From positions 1-64,000 of the forward strand of contig NZ_JAUNTJ010000008.1 of the NCBI RefSeq assembly GCF_030538755.1: a stretch of DNA of 64,000 bases, read 5' to 3'. The DNA comes from Paracoccus sp. (in: a-proteobacteria) (GTDB taxonomy: Bacteria; Pseudomonadota; Alphaproteobacteria; Rhodobacterales; Rhodobacteraceae). The first letter of the stretch is position 1; each line of letters starts with the position of its first letter. Positions 68-26,637 of this stretch are shown here, in pieces. The notes under the pieces are model-generated. The model saw nothing but the letters and a program-made list of their open reading frames with translations. It was not told the origin of the DNA and ran no database searches. Made by a program: the position numbers and the translations under genes.

Positions 68-1687
68 GTTGCCGCTGGACCGCGATTTCTGAATGAGTAC
101 ACTTTTCCAGTTGATCCGCCGCACGGCGGCGGGGTTGCCGCTGGACCGCGATTTCTGAATGAGTACACTGATAATGACAAACGCCGTCGAGCCGTCTTTG
201 TTGCCGCTGGACCGCGATTTCTGAATGAGTACACTTCCAGTCGTTCGCAATCGGCTTGTGTGAAGTTGCCGCTGGACCGCGATTTCTGAATGAGTACACT
301 CTAAGACGTACCTTACGCTTGTCGTGATTAGTTGCCGCTGGACCGCGATTTCTGAATGAGTACACTGGACAGCTTTCCGCCCCCGTGTCATCGAAGGTTG
401 CCGCTGGACCGCGATTTCTGAATGAGTACACTAAGCCGACACGCGACTTAACGTGCAAGTTAGTTGCCGCTGGACCGCGATTTCTGAATGAGTACACTCC
501 GGAACGCCAGTCCAGCCAGTCGCGAAAAGTTGCCGCTGGACCGCGATTTCTGAATGAGTACACTGATTAGGGCTGGAGTTAGCGAGAGCAGCGAGTTGCC
601 GCTGGACCGCGATTTCTGAATGAGTACACTAAGCAGCGCGCACGGAGCGGTTCGCCGTCTGTTGCCGCTGGACCGCGATTTCTGAATGAGTACACTTATA
701 GTGCCGGAACCAGCGGGCCGTGCCGGGGTTGCCGCTGGACCGCGATTTCTGAATGAGTACACTTCGCCAGCAGGATCGGGCCGATTGGGCGTTGTTGCCG
801 CTGGACCGCGATTTCTGAATGAGTACACTGTTGTCATCGAACACGAACAACCAGAACCGGTTGCCGCTGGACCGCGATTTCTGAATGAGTACACTAATTC
901 CGCGACTGTCATAAATTTATTTAGGGTTGCCGCTAGACCGCGATTTCTGAATGAGTACACTTCCAAGATCGAGGTTGGGATTATCGGTCTCGTTGCCGCT
1001 AGACCGCGATTTCTGAATGAGTACACTTCACATCCGAAATATCAAGAAGGCTCTTAAGTTGCCGCTAGACCGCGATTTCTGAATGAGTACACTGGGGCGC
1101 GGCAGGCGGGGCTGCCAAGAAGGGTTGCCGCTAGACCGCGATTTCTGAATGAGTACACTCTTGGGATCGGCGGCGATGGCAAGCAGACGGTTGCCGCTAG
1201 ACCGCGATTTCTGAATGAGTACACTGGCCCTCCGGGCGATGGCGGTCCAGTGGGAGTTGCCGCTAGACCGCGATTTCTGAATGAGTACACTCGGCCTTGC
1301 GCCGCATGAGCCGCGCCTGAAGTTGCCGCTAGACCGCGATTTCTGAATGAGTACACTACGCCCCGGCCCACATCGGCGATGGTCCCAGTTGCCGCTAGAC
1401 CGCGATTTCTGAATGAGTACACTGCGGGAATACGACGCTTGTGTATGGGAAGAGTTGCCGCTAGACCGCGATTTCTGAATGAGTACACTCATGCGCTCGA
1501 ATGGCACTCAGATTCTCGAGTTGCCGCTAGACCGCGATTTCTGAATGAGTACACTAAGCCCCATCAGCGGGGCTTCGCGGGCCTTGTTGCCGCTAGACCG
1601 CGATTTCTGAATGAGTACACTCGGGCGCTTGTTCACGCCTTCGGCCACGGAGTTGCCGCTAGACCGCGATTTCTGAATGAGTACACT
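68..1687 (+). CRISPR. Type II-C CRISPR array, 25 repeats and 24 spacers
   Basis: There are 25 repeats of 36 nt, each starting GTTGCCGCT and ending GAGTACACT, separated by 24 spacers of 29-31 nt (mostly 30). Repeats differ at only one place: base 10 is G in the first 13 repeats (68-895) and A in the last 12 (926-1687). I place the crRNA strand on plus because the repeat's 5' part is complementary to the anti-repeat at 6646-6672, and because the repeat ends in TACACT, which resembles the -10 box carried inside repeats of Neisseria-type II-C arrays. No terminal repeat is degenerate. I recognised no spacer as matching elsewhere in this window. Confidence 0.98.
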
Positions 1688-1759: not shown

Positions 1760-2104
1760 TCAGAACAGCACCAGTTGCGATGGATTTTCCCGGGCGCTGC
1801 GGCGGCCTTGGTCCGAGAAATGTACGATATCACGGTACTGGCGGTCTGTCAGCGTCAGGATCTGGACGTCGCCTTGCGAGGGCAGCGCGCGCTCAATCCG
1901 GCGGACGCGGCTTTCGAAGGCCTCCTTGCCGTTGATAAAGCGGGCGTAGATCGAGAACTGGCTGCGCTCGAAACCTTCGTCCAGCAGGAAGTTGCGGAAA
2001 TCCCCGGCCGCTTTACGTTGCGGCTTGGAATCGGTCGGCAGGTCGAACATCACAAGGATCCACATCAGGCGATATCCACTTAGAAATGTTGCCGGGCCGC
2101 TCAT
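1760..2104 (-). CDS. cas2: CRISPR-associated endoribonuclease-like protein Cas2
   Basis: Cas2 is the small dimeric partner of Cas1 in the spacer-integration complex. The core starting MWILVMFDLPTDSK gives the ferredoxin-like first strand with its conserved Asp, followed by the SQFSIYARF strand typical of type II Cas2. From the upstream ATG the protein is 114 residues. That ATG overlaps the cas1 stop as ATGA, which favours translational coupling. An internal ATG at 2065 would give 101 residues starting exactly at the conserved core, so the start is uncertain. It is the last gene of the cas9-cas1-cas2 minus-strand operon and ends 72 nt from the array. Confidence 0.95.
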   Translation of the reverse strand: MSGPATFLSGYRLMWILVMFDLPTDSKPQRKAAGDFRNFLLDEGFERSQFSIYARFINGKEAFESRVRRIERALPSQGDVQILTLTDRQYRDIVHFSDQGRRSARENPSQLVLF

Positions 2105-3012
2105 TTCCCGAGACCCGAAAGGACGAGTGGCGGTGGAGCTTCGGGCAGAGCCAGGCGCAATTTGCGCGTCTCGAAGCTTTGGGCGAGCGAAGTGGCGAGG
2201 CGGGAAAGGGCGACCGATACGGGGCTGGTTTCGCCAGTCAGCGGAAGGTCCAGCGCGATCAGTTCAGCCATACGGCGTTTAGCCTGCGACGTAACCTCGG
2301 GGCCATCGGTCGTGGCGATGGCGCGGGCTGTCAGATCGACCAGCGGGCGGAATGGCTCTATCAGGTCATCGGCCAGCGCGAAGGCATTCGAGCGGTTGGA
2401 ATGAAACAGCCCGATGGTTGGGTGCAGGCCAGCGGCGACCACTGCCCGCGCCGTTGCGGCGCGCAAAACGGTGTAACCATAATTCAGCAAGGCATTGATG
2501 TCGGGCAGATCCTTATCGCGGCGAAAATCCCGGCCCATTATCAGCGGCCAATAAATGCGGGCCGCTTGCGCTTCGGTATTGCCGCTGTCGCCTGATTGGA
2601 CATTGCGGGCCAGCATATCCAATGGCGCAGGCGGCTGACCAATAGCGGCAAGGGCCGCCGCCTGCATCTTGATCTTGGCGATCACGATTTGTTTCCAGGC
2701 TTGCTTTATCAGAGGTTGCGGCGCGTCCCATTGCGCACGCATCCGGGCATTTTGCATATGGTGGCCGTCAAGCGAACAGATCACCGCCCGAGGCTGGTGA
2801 TTGGCCCCGCAAAGAACAACCGGCGCGCCGCGATTGGCCAGTTCGACCAGCAGTGAATTGCTCCAGGTGATGCCGTGGGAATGGGCAATGACCGCTGTGA
2901 TTTGATCGAGAGGCACGCGGCCTATGGTTTCACCAGCCGCCTCGACCTGCATGAAGCCGCGATCCCGCGAGAGATGACGGCCATCCTGACTGATATCGAC
3001 GATCTGTTCCAC
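2101..3012 (-). CDS. cas1: CRISPR integrase Cas1 (type II)
   Basis: Cas1 catalyses integration of new spacers together with Cas2. The 303-residue length is normal for type II Cas1. The expected metal-binding residues are visible: E147 in GNTEAQAARIYW, H204 in GLFHSNRSNAF and E219 in DDLIEPFRPLVD. The start is a GTG at 3012, which begins the usual MEQIVDISQDGR N-terminus; I see no good upstream ATG. The gene follows cas9 after 78 nt holding two hairpins, one of which ends about 10 nt before the GTG, so translation may be modulated. Its stop overlaps the cas2 start. Confidence 0.96.
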   Translation of the reverse strand: MEQIVDISQDGRHLSRDRGFMQVEAAGETIGRVPLDQITAVIAHSHGITWSNSLLVELANRGAPVVLCGANHQPRAVICSLDGHHMQNARMRAQWDAPQPLIKQAWKQIVIAKIKMQAAALAAIGQPPAPLDMLARNVQSGDSGNTEAQAARIYWPLIMGRDFRRDKDLPDINALLNYGYTVLRAATARAVVAAGLHPTIGLFHSNRSNAFALADDLIEPFRPLVDLTARAIATTDGPEVTSQAKRRMAELIALDLPLTGETSPVSVALSRLATSLAQSFETRKLRLALPEAPPPLVLSGLGK

Positions 3013-3090: not shown

Positions 3091-6000
3091 TTAACTTGAG
3101 TTCCGTATGCGTCCTGCTTCATCCACAATGACCCTGCGCGCCCCGGACTTGAGCAGGCTGCCGGCATTGCAGCGGATAAACACATCCTCTTTGTCGCGAC
3201 GATAACGCTGGTCGGCATTGCTTTCGTTATGGGCGACAAGGCTGATCCCGCCATTCGTATCAAACTTTACAACAACCGCGATCACTGGCCCGAACTTGCT
3301 GTTGTCCAGCTTGACCATATCGCCTTTGTAAAGCCGTATCAGACGTTTTGCGGCCGGGTGTGGCTTTGTTTCGCCTGACTGGTGCGCATCAAAGGTTGAA
3401 ACAACCTGATGCACCGGCTTGCCGTCCGGCATACGCCAGACCTCATAGCATTGGTTGCTGTCGCCTTTGTAGCCCTTATAGGCGCGGCCTTGGGTATCGC
3501 GAATTTTGATAACATCCACCGGCTCGATAATCCGCACATGCCGGATGCGATGATAGGGGCCGGGCTGTTCGCGAAAGGCTTTCAGGGCGGCCTGCAAATC
3601 CTTGCCGCTTTTGTCTTTAACTATCGGCGTCAGCAATTTCACCAGATAGGGGTCGCGAATCTTGTCGAGCATTGCCGGGGTCGGGCTGTCAAAAGCCTTG
3701 CGCGTCACCACCAGCGGCACGCCCCGCGCGGTCTTGTCGGTCAACCCATAGGCGGTATCGTTGTGCAATTGACCTGCCGTTGAATCCCGCCCCTGCTTTT
3801 TCGCCTCGGGGTCGAAGCGACCGTGATCGGCGCGGTGGCTGACGGTGGTTGTCTTTAGCTGTTGCGCAAGATCGGCGCGAAAACTTTCCCATGGCGCGGG
3901 GATCGAGCCTGCCAATTCCTCCAACCCGTTTTCGACATTGGCTTTCGCCATATCGGAAATACGTTTGACCATTCCCTGATCTGTCGCACCGATAACAGCG
4001 GCGTCAATCATATGGTGGCGGTGGTCCTGACGGTTTTTGGCTTTTGCAGTTCCGCGATGCGCGTCAGGCAGCAGGCTGTTCAGCCCCCAGTGACGGCGCA
4101 GCATTTCGGTCAGTTTTCCCGCTACAACCCAGATCGGACGCCGACCCTCTGATAGAGCATCAGCATAAAGGCTTTCCAGATATTCCCGTGCCACCCGCGA
4201 CAGATATTGCGTATCAACCAGTGCGCGGGCGGAAAAATCACGCTCGCCTTCGTATTTCTCCATCGCATCGGGTTGGAAACGCCAGCGTTTTCCTTCGGGG
4301 AGGTTTTTCAGATTGGCCTCGATTGCCGGCCATTTCGGGGTCCCGCCCCACGCCTCCCACGGGGTTTTGTTGCGCTTTTCCCGGTTGGCGGATTTCAGGC
4401 AAATCGTGCGGTTGTTAAAGCTGTCATCCAGCGTGCGCGAATAGGGCAGGATGTGGTCAATATCGCAACTGCCATCAAACAGCATGGCGGCGGAAATCAC
4501 CTGCCCGGTATAGGGGCAGCGGCGCTTTAAGACATCCGGCGAGGTTTCCTCCCATACCCGCAAGATTGCGCGATTGCGGCCATTGTCCTGAACCTTCAGC
4601 TCTTCGATCAGTTTCTGGCTGCGCTGCTCGGCTGCCTTTTGGTTTTTGGCGTTGGTCTGCGCCAGATCACGCTTTTGCTCCTCGCTCATTTTCAGATCGC
4701 GGGCGAGTTCCAGCACGATTTCATCCGGGCGGCCATGAATATCAATGATCCGGTTCACAAGCCGCCGGATCTGCCCCAGCCCGATATGCACGGTCGGGTT
4801 GGTGATGCGCCCGAAGCGGGTCACGTCATCGTCGCTTTCCTCGCCAGTGCCGGGCAGGACGTGGCGGTCAAGAATCTGTCCGTAATAGGGCAGGCGGTCC
4901 AGCACCTCGCCGGTGGCCAGATGCGAATGATTCCAGCCGCAGAACTCCACGGCTTCGTTATAGGTCGCGACCTCCTGATCCGCCGTCCCGCCGATCAAAG
5001 CGGCAAGAATGCGGCGGGTCGCGGTTTCGCCCAGCCGGCCAAAGCCTTCGGGCAGGGGCGCATCGGCAATGGCGCGCGCGCGGTCGCGGTCAAAGCCGGT
5101 GTGGTCCATCAGCCAGCTTACCAGCTTTTCGCCGTCCTGTTCGTCGCGCAGGCGCTGGATGATCTGCCACTGCGCGTCCGTGTCCAGCGCGGTCCAGCCG
5201 GGGCCATAGCGGTCGGGATGGGCAAGGCTCATCCGCACCGGATCGCAGGCGATGGCATCGCGCATCGCGGTTTCCAGTGAAAAGCTTTCATCCGGGTGCA
5301 GCTTGATAATTTTCCTTAGCGCGACCAGCGTCAGCTTGTTCGAGCCGGGGCTTTTGGCCGGAACCTTGGCGTTCAGCGCAAAGATGATCTTGTCGCGTTC
5401 CTCGCGCGTCAGGCGACGTTTCGGCTGACCGGGGGTGACGACACGCAGCATGTTCACGGTTTCATAAAGCGTGCGCTGTTGCGTCAGCGGGTGTGCCTTG
5501 GGCAGGCGGCGTTCGGGCAGGAAAAGACAGCGGCCAATCGCCGGGGCCTTCAGGGGGCGCTGATAAAAGATCTTTTCAAAGATCAGGTCGCGCAATTCGT
5601 CGGTCAGTTCGGGGTGATGGGGGGCTTGTGCCTGCCAGAGCTTGTGAAATTCTTCCTCCAGATGGCGGCGGTCGGGGTAAAAATCATAGCCGGGCTGTTC
5701 CTTGCCATCCTCGCCGGTCAGATGCGGGTTGATCCGGGTGCGCACGGCGGGGACCGCACGGGCATCGCCAGCACTGGCGCGGCGCATGTGCAGAAACTCG
5801 CCATAGGTCCGGGCACCCGCCGCCATCATCGCCTGATCCAGCCGCGCCGAGGCATCGGCGATCAGCCCGCCTTCGTTATTGCCCTTGTCCGCGCGCCGGT
5901 TCGATTTGAACCCGCGCCGCTGGTTCAGGTGAAAGAATGCGCGGCCCAGATGTGTCAGCGGCAGCGGTTGCGTCAGACCCGTAGCCCGCAGCGCATAAGG

Positions 6001-6291
6001 ATCAAGCCGGGCCAGAGCCGCCGCCTCGTCCGGGTTTTGCGGCATCAGCCCGGCTTCGGCCATGCGCTTCATCAGGGTGGCGCGGCGGCGCAGATAGCGG
6101 TCGCGGCGGCGGCGCATGGCGCGGGCATTGCGTCGCCCGACGGCCAGCGATTGCCCGGTCTTGGCCTCGCGCCCATCGCCGAAAATCCGCACGCCGCCAT
6201 CGAGGATGCGCACGGGGCGACCGTTGACAATTTCGTAAAGAATCCAGCCTATTGAGGAGGTCCCGACATCAAGGGCGAGGCGTGTGAACAT
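3091..6291 (-). CDS. cas9: Cas9 RNA-guided DNA endonuclease, type II-C
   Basis: Cas9 cuts crRNA/tracrRNA-specified double-stranded DNA. It is 1,066 residues from the ATG at 6291, chosen because RuvC-I (ALDVGTSSIGW, D8) begins right there; the open frame extends upstream but encodes nothing Cas9-like. An Arg-rich bridge helix follows at about 52-72. RuvC-II (EIVLELARDLK, E528), HNH (CDIDHILPYS, H613) and RuvC-III (HHMIDAAV, H759/D763) are intact, so both nuclease sites look active. The compact size and cas9-cas1-cas2 order without csn2 or cas4 indicate subtype II-C. Its PAM cannot be read from sequence. The upstream region carries a seed-like match to the guide of the adjacent long tracrRNA candidate. 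Confidence 0.98.
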   Translation of the reverse strand: MFTRLALDVGTSSIGWILYEIVNGRPVRILDGGVRIFGDGREAKTGQSLAVGRRNARAMRRRRDRYLRRRATLMKRMAEAGLMPQNPDEAAALARLDPYALRATGLTQPLPLTHLGRAFFHLNQRRGFKSNRRADKGNNEGGLIADASARLDQAMMAAGARTYGEFLHMRRASAGDARAVPAVRTRINPHLTGEDGKEQPGYDFYPDRRHLEEEFHKLWQAQAPHHPELTDELRDLIFEKIFYQRPLKAPAIGRCLFLPERRLPKAHPLTQQRTLYETVNMLRVVTPGQPKRRLTREERDKIIFALNAKVPAKSPGSNKLTLVALRKIIKLHPDESFSLETAMRDAIACDPVRMSLAHPDRYGPGWTALDTDAQWQIIQRLRDEQDGEKLVSWLMDHTGFDRDRARAIADAPLPEGFGRLGETATRRILAALIGGTADQEVATYNEAVEFCGWNHSHLATGEVLDRLPYYGQILDRHVLPGTGEESDDDVTRFGRITNPTVHIGLGQIRRLVNRIIDIHGRPDEIVLELARDLKMSEEQKRDLAQTNAKNQKAAEQRSQKLIEELKVQDNGRNRAILRVWEETSPDVLKRRCPYTGQVISAAMLFDGSCDIDHILPYSRTLDDSFNNRTICLKSANREKRNKTPWEAWGGTPKWPAIEANLKNLPEGKRWRFQPDAMEKYEGERDFSARALVDTQYLSRVAREYLESLYADALSEGRRPIWVVAGKLTEMLRRHWGLNSLLPDAHRGTAKAKNRQDHRHHMIDAAVIGATDQGMVKRISDMAKANVENGLEELAGSIPAPWESFRADLAQQLKTTTVSHRADHGRFDPEAKKQGRDSTAGQLHNDTAYGLTDKTARGVPLVVTRKAFDSPTPAMLDKIRDPYLVKLLTPIVKDKSGKDLQAALKAFREQPGPYHRIRHVRIIEPVDVIKIRDTQGRAYKGYKGDSNQCYEVWRMPDGKPVHQVVSTFDAHQSGETKPHPAAKRLIRLYKGDMVKLDNSKFGPVIAVVVKFDTNGGISLVAHNESNADQRYRRDKEDVFIRCNAGSLLKSGARRVIVDEAGRIRNSS

Positions 6292-6347: not shown

Positions 6348-6370
6348 AGTCAAGAATTAATGTCTTTGAG
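6348..6370 (+). promoter_or_regulatory. Putative Cas9 self-target site in the cas9 promoter region
   Basis: The plus-strand sequence TGTCTTTGA (6361-6369) is identical to the nine bases that directly precede the degenerate repeat at 6579, and the following G also matches. In a guide RNA these would be the PAM-proximal seed. A 20-nt protospacer ending at 6369 would reach 6350 and cover a minus-strand TTGACT (6348-6353), a candidate -35 box for cas9; the corresponding -10 is poor. The 3' flank, GGAAAACT, would be the PAM side. The site lies about 70 bp upstream of the cas9 ATG. The match is seen; binding and repression are inferred. Confidence 0.5.
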
Positions 6371-6610
6371 GAAAACTTATTGTTCTTGGTGGGCGGATGG
6401 CTTAGGATAAATGTGCCCAGTTCTTGCCGGGGCGATGTGGTCCGGTTCACCCCGTGACTGGCTCTGATAAGCAGCATCGCTTTCGCAAGAGGGAAAGTCG
6501 GCGTCCACACCCGGCTAAGGGCATCAATAGCTTCCGAGCCATGAGGGACAATGTTCCCTGACCCGGCAGTGTCTTTGAGTTGCGACTGGACTGCGATTTC
6601 TGAATTGCTC

Positions 6611-6638
6611 TTGACTTGGCCGCGAGAATGCCTTTATC
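6611..6638 (+). promoter_or_regulatory. Candidate promoter of short tracrRNA
   Basis: TTGACT (6611-6616) is followed after 16 bp by TTTATC (6633-6638), a reasonable sigma-70-type -35/-10 pair. The predicted start would fall at about 6645, exactly where the anti-repeat begins. It lies inside what would be the loop of the longer transcript, as expected if long and short tracrRNA forms have separate promoters. Confidence 0.55.
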
Positions 6639-6645
6639 GGGAAGC

Positions 6646-6765
6646 ATTCAGAAATCGCGGTCGAGTGGTTAACAAGCTCGACAGAGCACCACATTGAAGC
6701 ACGGGCTACGGCCCGTGTTTCCATATTCGGCTGTCCTCTGCCGGTGGGCTTCCCCTTTGATTCCA
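6646..6765 (+). ncRNA. tracrRNA
   Basis: Bases 6646-6672 (starting ATTCAGAAATCGCGGTC) are complementary to the 5' two thirds of the array repeat, with a few wobbles or mismatches near the outer end. Base 10 of the repeat, which varies between array halves, faces a G here and pairs with neither variant. Downstream is a tail with a perfect hairpin CACGGGC-TACG-GCCCGTG followed by TTT (about 6700-6720), then a weaker CGGC/GCCG hairpin and a GGGCTTCCCC stretch before CTTTG, which may end the RNA. The 3' end is approximate. It is needed for crRNA maturation and Cas9 loading. Confidence 0.88.
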
Positions 6766-26480: not shown

Positions 26481-26637
26481 CTATATTCGCAGGCATGTCC
26501 TGCGCCTATGGGTCGGGCGTCCGGGGCCGCGCAAGCGGGCCGCTTCCTTGTGTGCGGTAGTGAGAACCCCGTTCGTCCGGCCCGCCAATTTCTCACCATG
26601 TCGGGCGGGTTTCACACTGAAACACAAGGGGCAAGCT

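Follow-up and report, generated by a model that had tools for sequence, protein, structure and literature searches.

A probable natural single-guide RNA directed at the cas9 promoter in type II-C CRISPR-Cas loci of Paracoccus and related bacteria

The window, that is the whole stretch of 64,000 nucleotides of Paracoccus DNA analysed here, begins at the start of its contig and carries a CRISPR-Cas locus close to that end. Its array and cas genes are arranged as follows:

68..1687, plus strand (the crRNA sense): CRISPR array of 25 repeats of 36 nt, the first at 68, from repeat finding, consensus and count
1760..2104, minus strand: cas2 (TIGR01573; Cas2_II)
2101..3012, minus strand: cas1, type II form (TIGR03639 above cut-off; Cas1_II)
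3091..6291, minus strand: cas9, 1066 aa (TIGR01865, E 5.4e-154; Pfam HNH_4 and RuvC_III; PADLOC Cas9 models)
6289-6291, minus strand: cas9 start codon

The genes follow the order cas9-cas1-cas2 with the array directly after, which differs from the type II-A set of cas9, cas1, cas2 and csn2. Type II-C is defined by cas9, cas1 and cas2 without csn2 or cas4, and by a Cas9 near 1000 aa. The window locus is of type II-C, its contig ending at window position 1, just beyond the array. PADLOC gave no match in three ORFs that lie beyond the tracrRNA gene, and the nearest relatives of the window Cas9, among the best matches of each genome search, were from Paracoccus. A single CRISPR repeat lies near a contig end at G000:C50:96240-96278 (L120), next to an apparent transposase end; because the window starts at the start of its contig, close to the array, this repeat may be the other end of the window array, split by an insertion sequence. 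Farther along, window positions 26505-26588 match the C4 antisense RNA (RF01695; 45.5 bits against a cut-off of 45), a phage-type immunity RNA, and there is perhaps a prophage in the window.

Upstream of cas9, the plus strand holds a tracrRNA gene with a repeat and a short guide before it:

6568..6578, plus strand: natural guide AGTGTCTTTGA, 11 nt, which co-varies with its target across 17 loci
6579..6606, plus strand: degenerate CRISPR repeat GTTGCGACTGGACTGCGATTTCTGAATT, 24/28 identical to the array repeat and with equivalents in relatives
6611..6638, plus strand: likely short-tracrRNA promoter, TTGACT, 16 nt and TTTATC, ending 6 bp before the anti-repeat
6645..6672, plus strand: tracrRNA anti-repeat, an inverted repeat of the array repeats
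6673..6722, plus strand: tracrRNA body, its last stem-loop near 6700-6718, almost invariant in eight aligned sequences and seen in the fold

The gap from the degenerate repeat to the anti-repeat is 38 nt, on the same strand. Computed folding of the RNA from 6569 to 6725 gave -78.4 kcal/mol (z = -8.2) and the expected repeat/anti-repeat single-guide shape. Sequence and fold thus bear out what the initial annotation had described, a degenerate repeat at 6579-6606 upstream of an anti-repeat on the same strand with a single-guide fold; the anti-repeat, placed there at 6646-6672, is present with its start at 6645. Guide bases are also paired within the computed fold, which counts against a guide function. 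CTTGAC lies between repeat and anti-repeat in 8/8 aligned sequences (the window and seven relatives), and in L026, L028, L035 and L080 the TTGAC box sits inside the degenerate repeat itself; from its position, this box is likely the promoter of the short tracrRNA. A simple automatic scan found no sigma-70-like promoter for a long RNA, for the short tracrRNA or for cas9, and no terminator either, and at the gathering threshold nothing in Rfam matched the locus.

The counterpart of the guide lies in the cas9 promoter:

6348..6353, minus strand: possible cas9 -35 box TTGACT, recognised by eye in a comparison of 14 loci
6359..6369, plus strand: 11-bp target AATGTCTTTGA in the cas9 promoter, 10/11 identical to the guide, with the mismatch at position 10 from the PAM
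6370..6377, plus strand: PAM-side flank GGAAAACT, compared with the flanks of phage protospacers

GGAAA stands directly after the target. The nine bases before the repeat do recur at 6361-6369, as had been noticed at the outset; the match is exact there and takes in position 11 as well. The suggested overlap of the protospacer with a possible -35 box also holds, since a 20-bp protospacer at 6350-6369 overlaps TTGACT at 6348-6353, the box being read by eye. The 10-base word TGTCTTTGAG has two copies in the 64-kb window, namely the guide and target sites, against 0.04 expected. The 3.0-Mb assembly (87% complete) has a single occurrence of TGTCTTTGA with NGRNA after it, at the cas9 promoter; as the reversed control pattern also occurs once in the same assembly, this search shows that there is no second site, not that one site is surprising. 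When the window was taken alone, a 9-nt match anchored at the repeat was reached in 1 of 500 Markov-shuffled promoters. The window by itself is thus suggestive, and it is the relatives that decide.

Related loci were drawn from a genus set (125 genomes, 11 with a Cas9 match including the window's own), a family set (394 genomes, 31 with a match), a class set (385 genomes, 62 with a match) and an order set added later (390 genomes, 30 with a match), at most the best 30 loci of each genome search being taken; a contig search of the genomes gave 38 loci with Cas9 relatives. The initial sets comprised 107 loci, and the cas9 start was present in 102 of them, or 103 with the window, corresponding to 89 distinct upstream regions. 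Addition of 13 of the 14 loci that were new from the order set brought the total to 102 upstream regions.

When the window and seven relatives were aligned, guide and target were found to change between species and to remain matched: L002 (AGTGCTGTTGA) and L013 (AGTGCTTTTGA) match at 11/11, L006 (AGTATCATTGA) and L011 (AGTTTCATTGA) at 10/11, and GGAAA stands 3' of the target in all four alike. Four guide positions differ between the sister sequences L002 and L006, and the targets changed at all four. Among the other close relatives, L004 has one mismatch, L005 matches over just 6 nt and L003 is without the target region. Distant carriers belong to Marinosulfonomonas, Roseovarius, Yoonia, Pseudohalocynthiibacter, Pelagivirga, a Rhodobacterales bin and Sphingomonas, together with L080, from another family. 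Two of these loci come from cultured environmental carriers, L028 from Yoonia vestfoldensis DSM 16212 and L035 from Pseudohalocynthiibacter aestuariivivens. In the 19 loci whose anti-repeat is preceded by a repeat, the matches of own pairs sum to 152, versus at most 120 in 20,000 permutations; the permutation ignores relatedness, and since related loci raise the swapped scores the test is conservative. At least 8 contiguous matches are present in 12/19 of these loci, and at least 10 with one mismatch allowed in 15/19. Four loci, L003, L005, L034 and L067, have the repeat before the anti-repeat without an acceptable match on either measure.

A second scan was blind to the repeat and asked for 10/11 matches with an identical 4-base end and a G at the second flank position. 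It was counted over 33 roomy loci, which have 150 nt or more between the anti-repeat and the cas9 start, and 39 compact ones, 30 of the 102 loci having been dropped beforehand for want of a convincing anti-repeat with the repeat library used. Matches occurred in 16/33 roomy loci and 0/39 compact loci; swapping promoters among the 33 roomy loci gave 1.44 matched loci on average and never more than 5 (300 shuffles, self-pairs not counted). The remaining 17 of the 33 roomy loci gave no match under this strict rule. For 15 of the 16 matched loci every match lay at the repeat junction or at most 2 bases away, L035 having one unrelated match in addition, and L051, whose degenerate repeat starts with ATTGCG, was recovered in this way after an earlier miss. 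Out of sample, three of the 13 added loci were eligible (anti-repeat score of at least 25 and a repeat before it) and two of the three fit, L150 with 11/11 (flank AGGGTTAA) and L152 with 10/11 (flank GGGGTTGT); the third, L153, with its cas9 in several pieces, had no promoter match. Judged by comparison of sequences, guide and target have changed together in the relatives, with 16 different guides over 17 loci, the window included, mostly from Rhodobacteraceae and also from Sphingomonas. The guide-target identity to be looked for by alignment of homologous loci is therefore present, and it co-varies with differing sequences.

This co-variation bears on two simpler explanations. The degenerate repeat might be a decayed array unit, with a short match that is fortuitous or left over, as could be supposed from the four loci that have the repeat but no match (L003, L005, L034, L067) and from a Paracoccus without a Cas9 match that retains an orphan repeat/anti-repeat locus. 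However, each of 16 different guides has its match in the promoter of its own locus, few matches arise with swapped promoters and both sides changed together in close relatives, and in view of this co-variation we regard such an origin as very improbable. Alternatively, both sites could be copies of the binding site of one transcription factor, built on a promoter-like TTGA word, and in most of the Paracoccus group both do end in TTGA. Nevertheless, the guides elsewhere are little alike (AAAGCTGGTCA, GAAGTAACTTG, AAACCTTGCTA), each being equal to its own promoter site, and 16 distinct pairwise-matched sequences are hard to square with the site of one factor, an explanation to which we give hardly any credence.

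The extent of the match was followed over 17 same-strand loci, the 16 from the blind scan plus L017, which was added by hand since its mismatch falls at position 3. Guide and target agree at positions 1-11 in 14-17 of the 17 loci, at position 12 in 0/17 and at positions 13-16 in 1-5/17; because loci were chosen by their match, the agreement at positions 1-11 is somewhat overstated, but the mismatch at position 12 is not produced by this choice. Given a cross-locus agreement of 0.24 and loci taken as independent, the chance of 17 misses at position 12 is about 0.01. Mismatches within the seed are found at position 5 in L004, position 3 in L017 and position 8 in L152. According to the accessible parts of PMC8616872 and PMC11417352, the tracr-L of S. 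pyogenes has an 11-nt match to a cas promoter. The abrupt end of the match at position 11 would show, as measured by nature itself, how much pairing allows binding without cleavage.

Flanks of phage protospacers were used to judge the PAM. Five matches were examined, from four spacers of three arrays (window, L013 and L026), with matches H2, H13 and H14 of these same arrays outside the examined set. The window spacer matches a Dinoroseobacter phage at 26/30 (E 0.5, flank CGGAAAGC, the PAM-adjacent base being mismatched); one L013 spacer matches two phages, at 28/30 (E 6e-3, flank GGAGATCA) and 27/30 (E 0.8, flank GGACATCA), and another a Pseudanabaena phage at 27/30 (E 0.8, flank TGCTGTAG); the L026 spacer matches a Thiobacimonas phage at 30/30 (E 3e-6, flank TGGGCGTC). 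These flanks have a G at position 2 in 5/5 and A or G at position 3 in 4/5, four of the five matches having E values of 6e-3 to 0.8. The target flanks have a G at position 2 in 17/17 and A or G at position 3 in 16/17; the G was a condition of the blind scan for 16 of the 17 targets, and 14/14 same-strand targets found without requiring it have it anyway. The poorest fit to the PAM is the flank AGTTTTAC of L080. The window flank GGAAAACT, on whose tolerance as a PAM the initial annotation had made its proposal depend, is compatible with the Cas9 PAM suggested by the five mostly weak phage matches and is not refuted by them. No phage match came from the arrays of L040, L020 or L012. A plasmid search with the window array returned six records; in the protospacer searches two matches lay under transposase genes and H11 spans a spacer and a repeat.

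The place of the target differs among loci. The target of the Paracoccus group is 55-82 nt upstream of the cas9 start, before the presumed -35 box, and in most members a TTGAC-like cas9 box, read by eye, follows close downstream of the 11 bp (none was seen in L013). In other loci it lies near or after the presumed -10 box (by eye), 4-39 nt before the start codon, or 50 in L017. Either placement would block transcription. The polarity of the guide also permits pairing with the cas9 mRNA, so that 11 nt of a long plus-strand RNA could act as antisense on its 5' end and block translation without any guiding to DNA, and in L026, L028, L035, L037, L051, L080, L150 and L152 the target is 4-19 nt before the start codon (start by alignment to the window Cas9). 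Such a role seems improbable to us. The match is anchored at the base adjoining the degenerate repeat, which mRNA pairing would not need, and the G at position 2 (17/17, and 14/14 of those found without the condition) would be superfluous for it; moreover, the targets of the Paracoccus group stand far upstream, ahead of the presumed -35 box, and L043 has a one-mismatch target on the other strand.

Taking these data together, it is very likely that the tracrRNA gene of these type II-C loci yields a natural single-guide RNA that targets Cas9 to the cas9 promoter in a negative feedback. This is the interpretation first put forward in the initial annotation, and it is supported by the co-variation in relatives, repression being its predicted outcome. 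A long transcript starting upstream of 6568 would carry the 11-nt guide, the degenerate repeat and the anti-repeat in one molecule, which according to the computed fold could fold on itself into a shape accepted by Cas9. The loaded Cas9 would then bind the cas9 promoter at 6359-6377, where 9-11 bp beside a proper PAM should, by analogy with type II-A, be enough to bind and not to cut. As HNH and RuvC_III are both recognised in this Cas9, the match would have to be short if the locus is not to be cut. The bound Cas9 would cover the -35 region, or the start region in relatives, and block transcription of cas9-cas1-cas2, while a separate promoter between repeat and anti-repeat would supply short tracrRNA for the ordinary crRNAs. 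The net result would be negative feedback on Cas9.

The guide could instead chiefly control other genes, like the scaRNA of Francisella, with the match at cas9 being secondary. The Francisella scaRNA is a separate small RNA that acts with tracrRNA and represses other genes, not cas9. In contrast, repeat and anti-repeat of the window lie 38 nt apart on one strand and the sole genomic site is at cas9. The likeness of the F. novicida scaRNA (type II-B) to the present loci is the use of Cas9 as a DNA-binding repressor, in the available text of PMC13431127. Unmatched guides do occur (L003, L005, L034, L067), and the whole-genome search for further sites covers the window's genome only; yet in that genome the word with its PAM occurs solely at cas9, and no further site within the locus was found, by the rule used, for L003, L034, L067 and L017, four of the six guides tried. 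The other two gave weak sites within their loci, one 8-nt match in L005 (flank GACCAGTT) and two weak matches in L043. We hold a main role at other genes to be highly improbable, and return to the natural single guide against the cas9 promoter.

Upstream of the guide, in the presumed leader of a long RNA, one element recurs:

6500..6512, plus strand: GTCCACA element, presumed long-tracrRNA leader, with a co-varying hairpin in relatives and an imperfect copy in the window

The exact GTCCACA is present on the plus strand upstream of the guide in 11/19 repeat-bearing loci, plus L051, with two copies in some; among the remaining distinct upstream regions (of 89), only L047 and L085 have it on the plus strand. 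Hairpins with a GUCCACA loop are found at 6490-6520 of the window and in L002, L004, L017, L026, L028, L035, L037, L040, L051, L067, L080, L150 and L152, with two copies each in L035, L037, L040 and L067; L150 has the hairpin with new arms and L152 the variant loop GUCCAUA (stems by eye). Pairing holds for 91% of the stem cells in 14 copies, with changes on both sides in 17 cells, and 0/500 shuffles equalled this, the copies having been chosen by eye, which favours pairing, and the window copy being imperfect. The G-U pairs of the hairpin fall on the plus strand. The co-varying hairpins suggest that the long RNA starts further upstream. Rfam gave no match at the leader hairpins of L026, L035, L037 and L040 with E up to 0.5, and the hairpin core occurs at two places in the window's own genome, against one for the control.

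An anti-guide within the leader was tried as a candidate. Guides are partly complementary to it, and own combinations are weakly better than swapped ones (P = 0.012 for pairing, 0.044 for duplex energy and 0.041 ungapped); it was not adopted and is kept as a lead. A broader reading would join type II-C autorepression by a natural single guide, with its 11-nt rule, to a structured 5' leader that makes self-silencing conditional and so acts as a switch. Its leader parts would possibly be the GUCCACA hairpins with co-varying stems and a guide-pairing segment, and as a whole it seems unlikely to us.

The tracr-L of Streptococcus pyogenes type II-A (Workman et al. 2021, as presented in the accessible parts of PMC8616872 and PMC11417352) resembles the present loci in several respects: guide, repeat and anti-repeat stand in a single RNA, an 11-nt match to a cas promoter adjoins the PAM (in the window 10/11, beside a putative PAM), long and short tracrRNA come from two promoters, as they would in the type II-C loci, and the target is at the promoter or downstream of its -10 box. 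The present loci differ in being of subtype II-C with a different Cas9, in that their short promoter would lie in or after the degenerate repeat, and in that the GTCCACA hairpin leader co-occurs in many of them, whereas repression here is a prediction. Since the locus does not have the II-A composition, it would work like tracr-L without being a member of the II-A family by subtype. At the level of sequence, the anatomy of tracr-L, 11-nt match included, is now seen in type II-C, having previously been described for II-A. Shmakov et al. 2023 reportedly described CreR, mini-arrays and crRNA-like elements of types I and V-A. These are alike in having degenerate repeats and short guides matching cas promoters, but belong to other types and are not known as natural single guides formed from tracrRNA.

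A 2021 review states, in its accessible part, that tracr-L is absent from other subtypes (PMC8616872). The scaRNA of Neisseria meningitidis is likewise a CRISPR-associated regulatory RNA of type II-C, but in the available text of PMC13431127 it is a post-transcriptional regulator of efeO mRNA and is not described as a tracrRNA extension toward a cas promoter. The accessible portions of the literature, including those of PMC11417352, PMC13431127, PMC9067536, PMC8616872, PMC10013973 and PMC12080349 and with subscription papers and preprints outside this scope, report no natural single guide against a cas promoter in type II-C; a word search of the available text of PMC7606464 gave nothing, and literature on alphaproteobacterial tracrRNA gave nothing relevant.

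In a tree of 54 Cas9 proteins (L011, L150 and L152 absent, and L051 labelled as without repeat), the matched loci are interspersed with others whose intergenic region is compact and lacks a repeat. The matched or unmatched label of the 18 repeat-bearing rows is not clustered (3 changes; 127/500 shuffles as low). This distribution would fit repeated loss or repeated gain alike. We also scanned 20 extended loci from the wider type II-C, one without an array and one without a usable repeat, for stretches resembling repeat and anti-repeat. In the distant L008 and L070 a repeat precedes the anti-repeat by 154 and 168 nt and the matches are doubtful, and no clear repeat close before the anti-repeat was seen in the remaining loci of the 20, which were not studied singly; thus, the feature is not claimed for all of type II-C. 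If the interpretation is true, autorepression would be old in type II, or would have evolved repeatedly, each time solving in the same way the problem of how to bind and not cut. It would also account for the distance of some of these tracrRNA genes from cas9. When native type II-C systems serve as tools, their own tracrRNA may dampen them, and 17 natural guide-target pairs are available for testing.

Some individual loci show further features. In L043, from Sphingomonas, the guide matches the other strand with one mismatch at about 165 in the upstream region, beside AGGAATTG, a possible target in the opposite orientation as far as its sequence goes. The upstream region of L067 has, at 247-320, two tandem degenerate repeats before the anti-repeat, forming a mini-array whose first guide is without a promoter match. 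At about 1500-1640 of L116 (genome G072, the Paracoccus without a Cas9 match), a near-perfect repeat, a TTGAC box and an anti-repeat follow one another with no cas9, which would be a relic or a free-standing tracrRNA-like gene. Finally, the genome of L005 (G084), whose natural guide has the 6-nt promoter match, carries a second small CRISPR array on another contig (L119).
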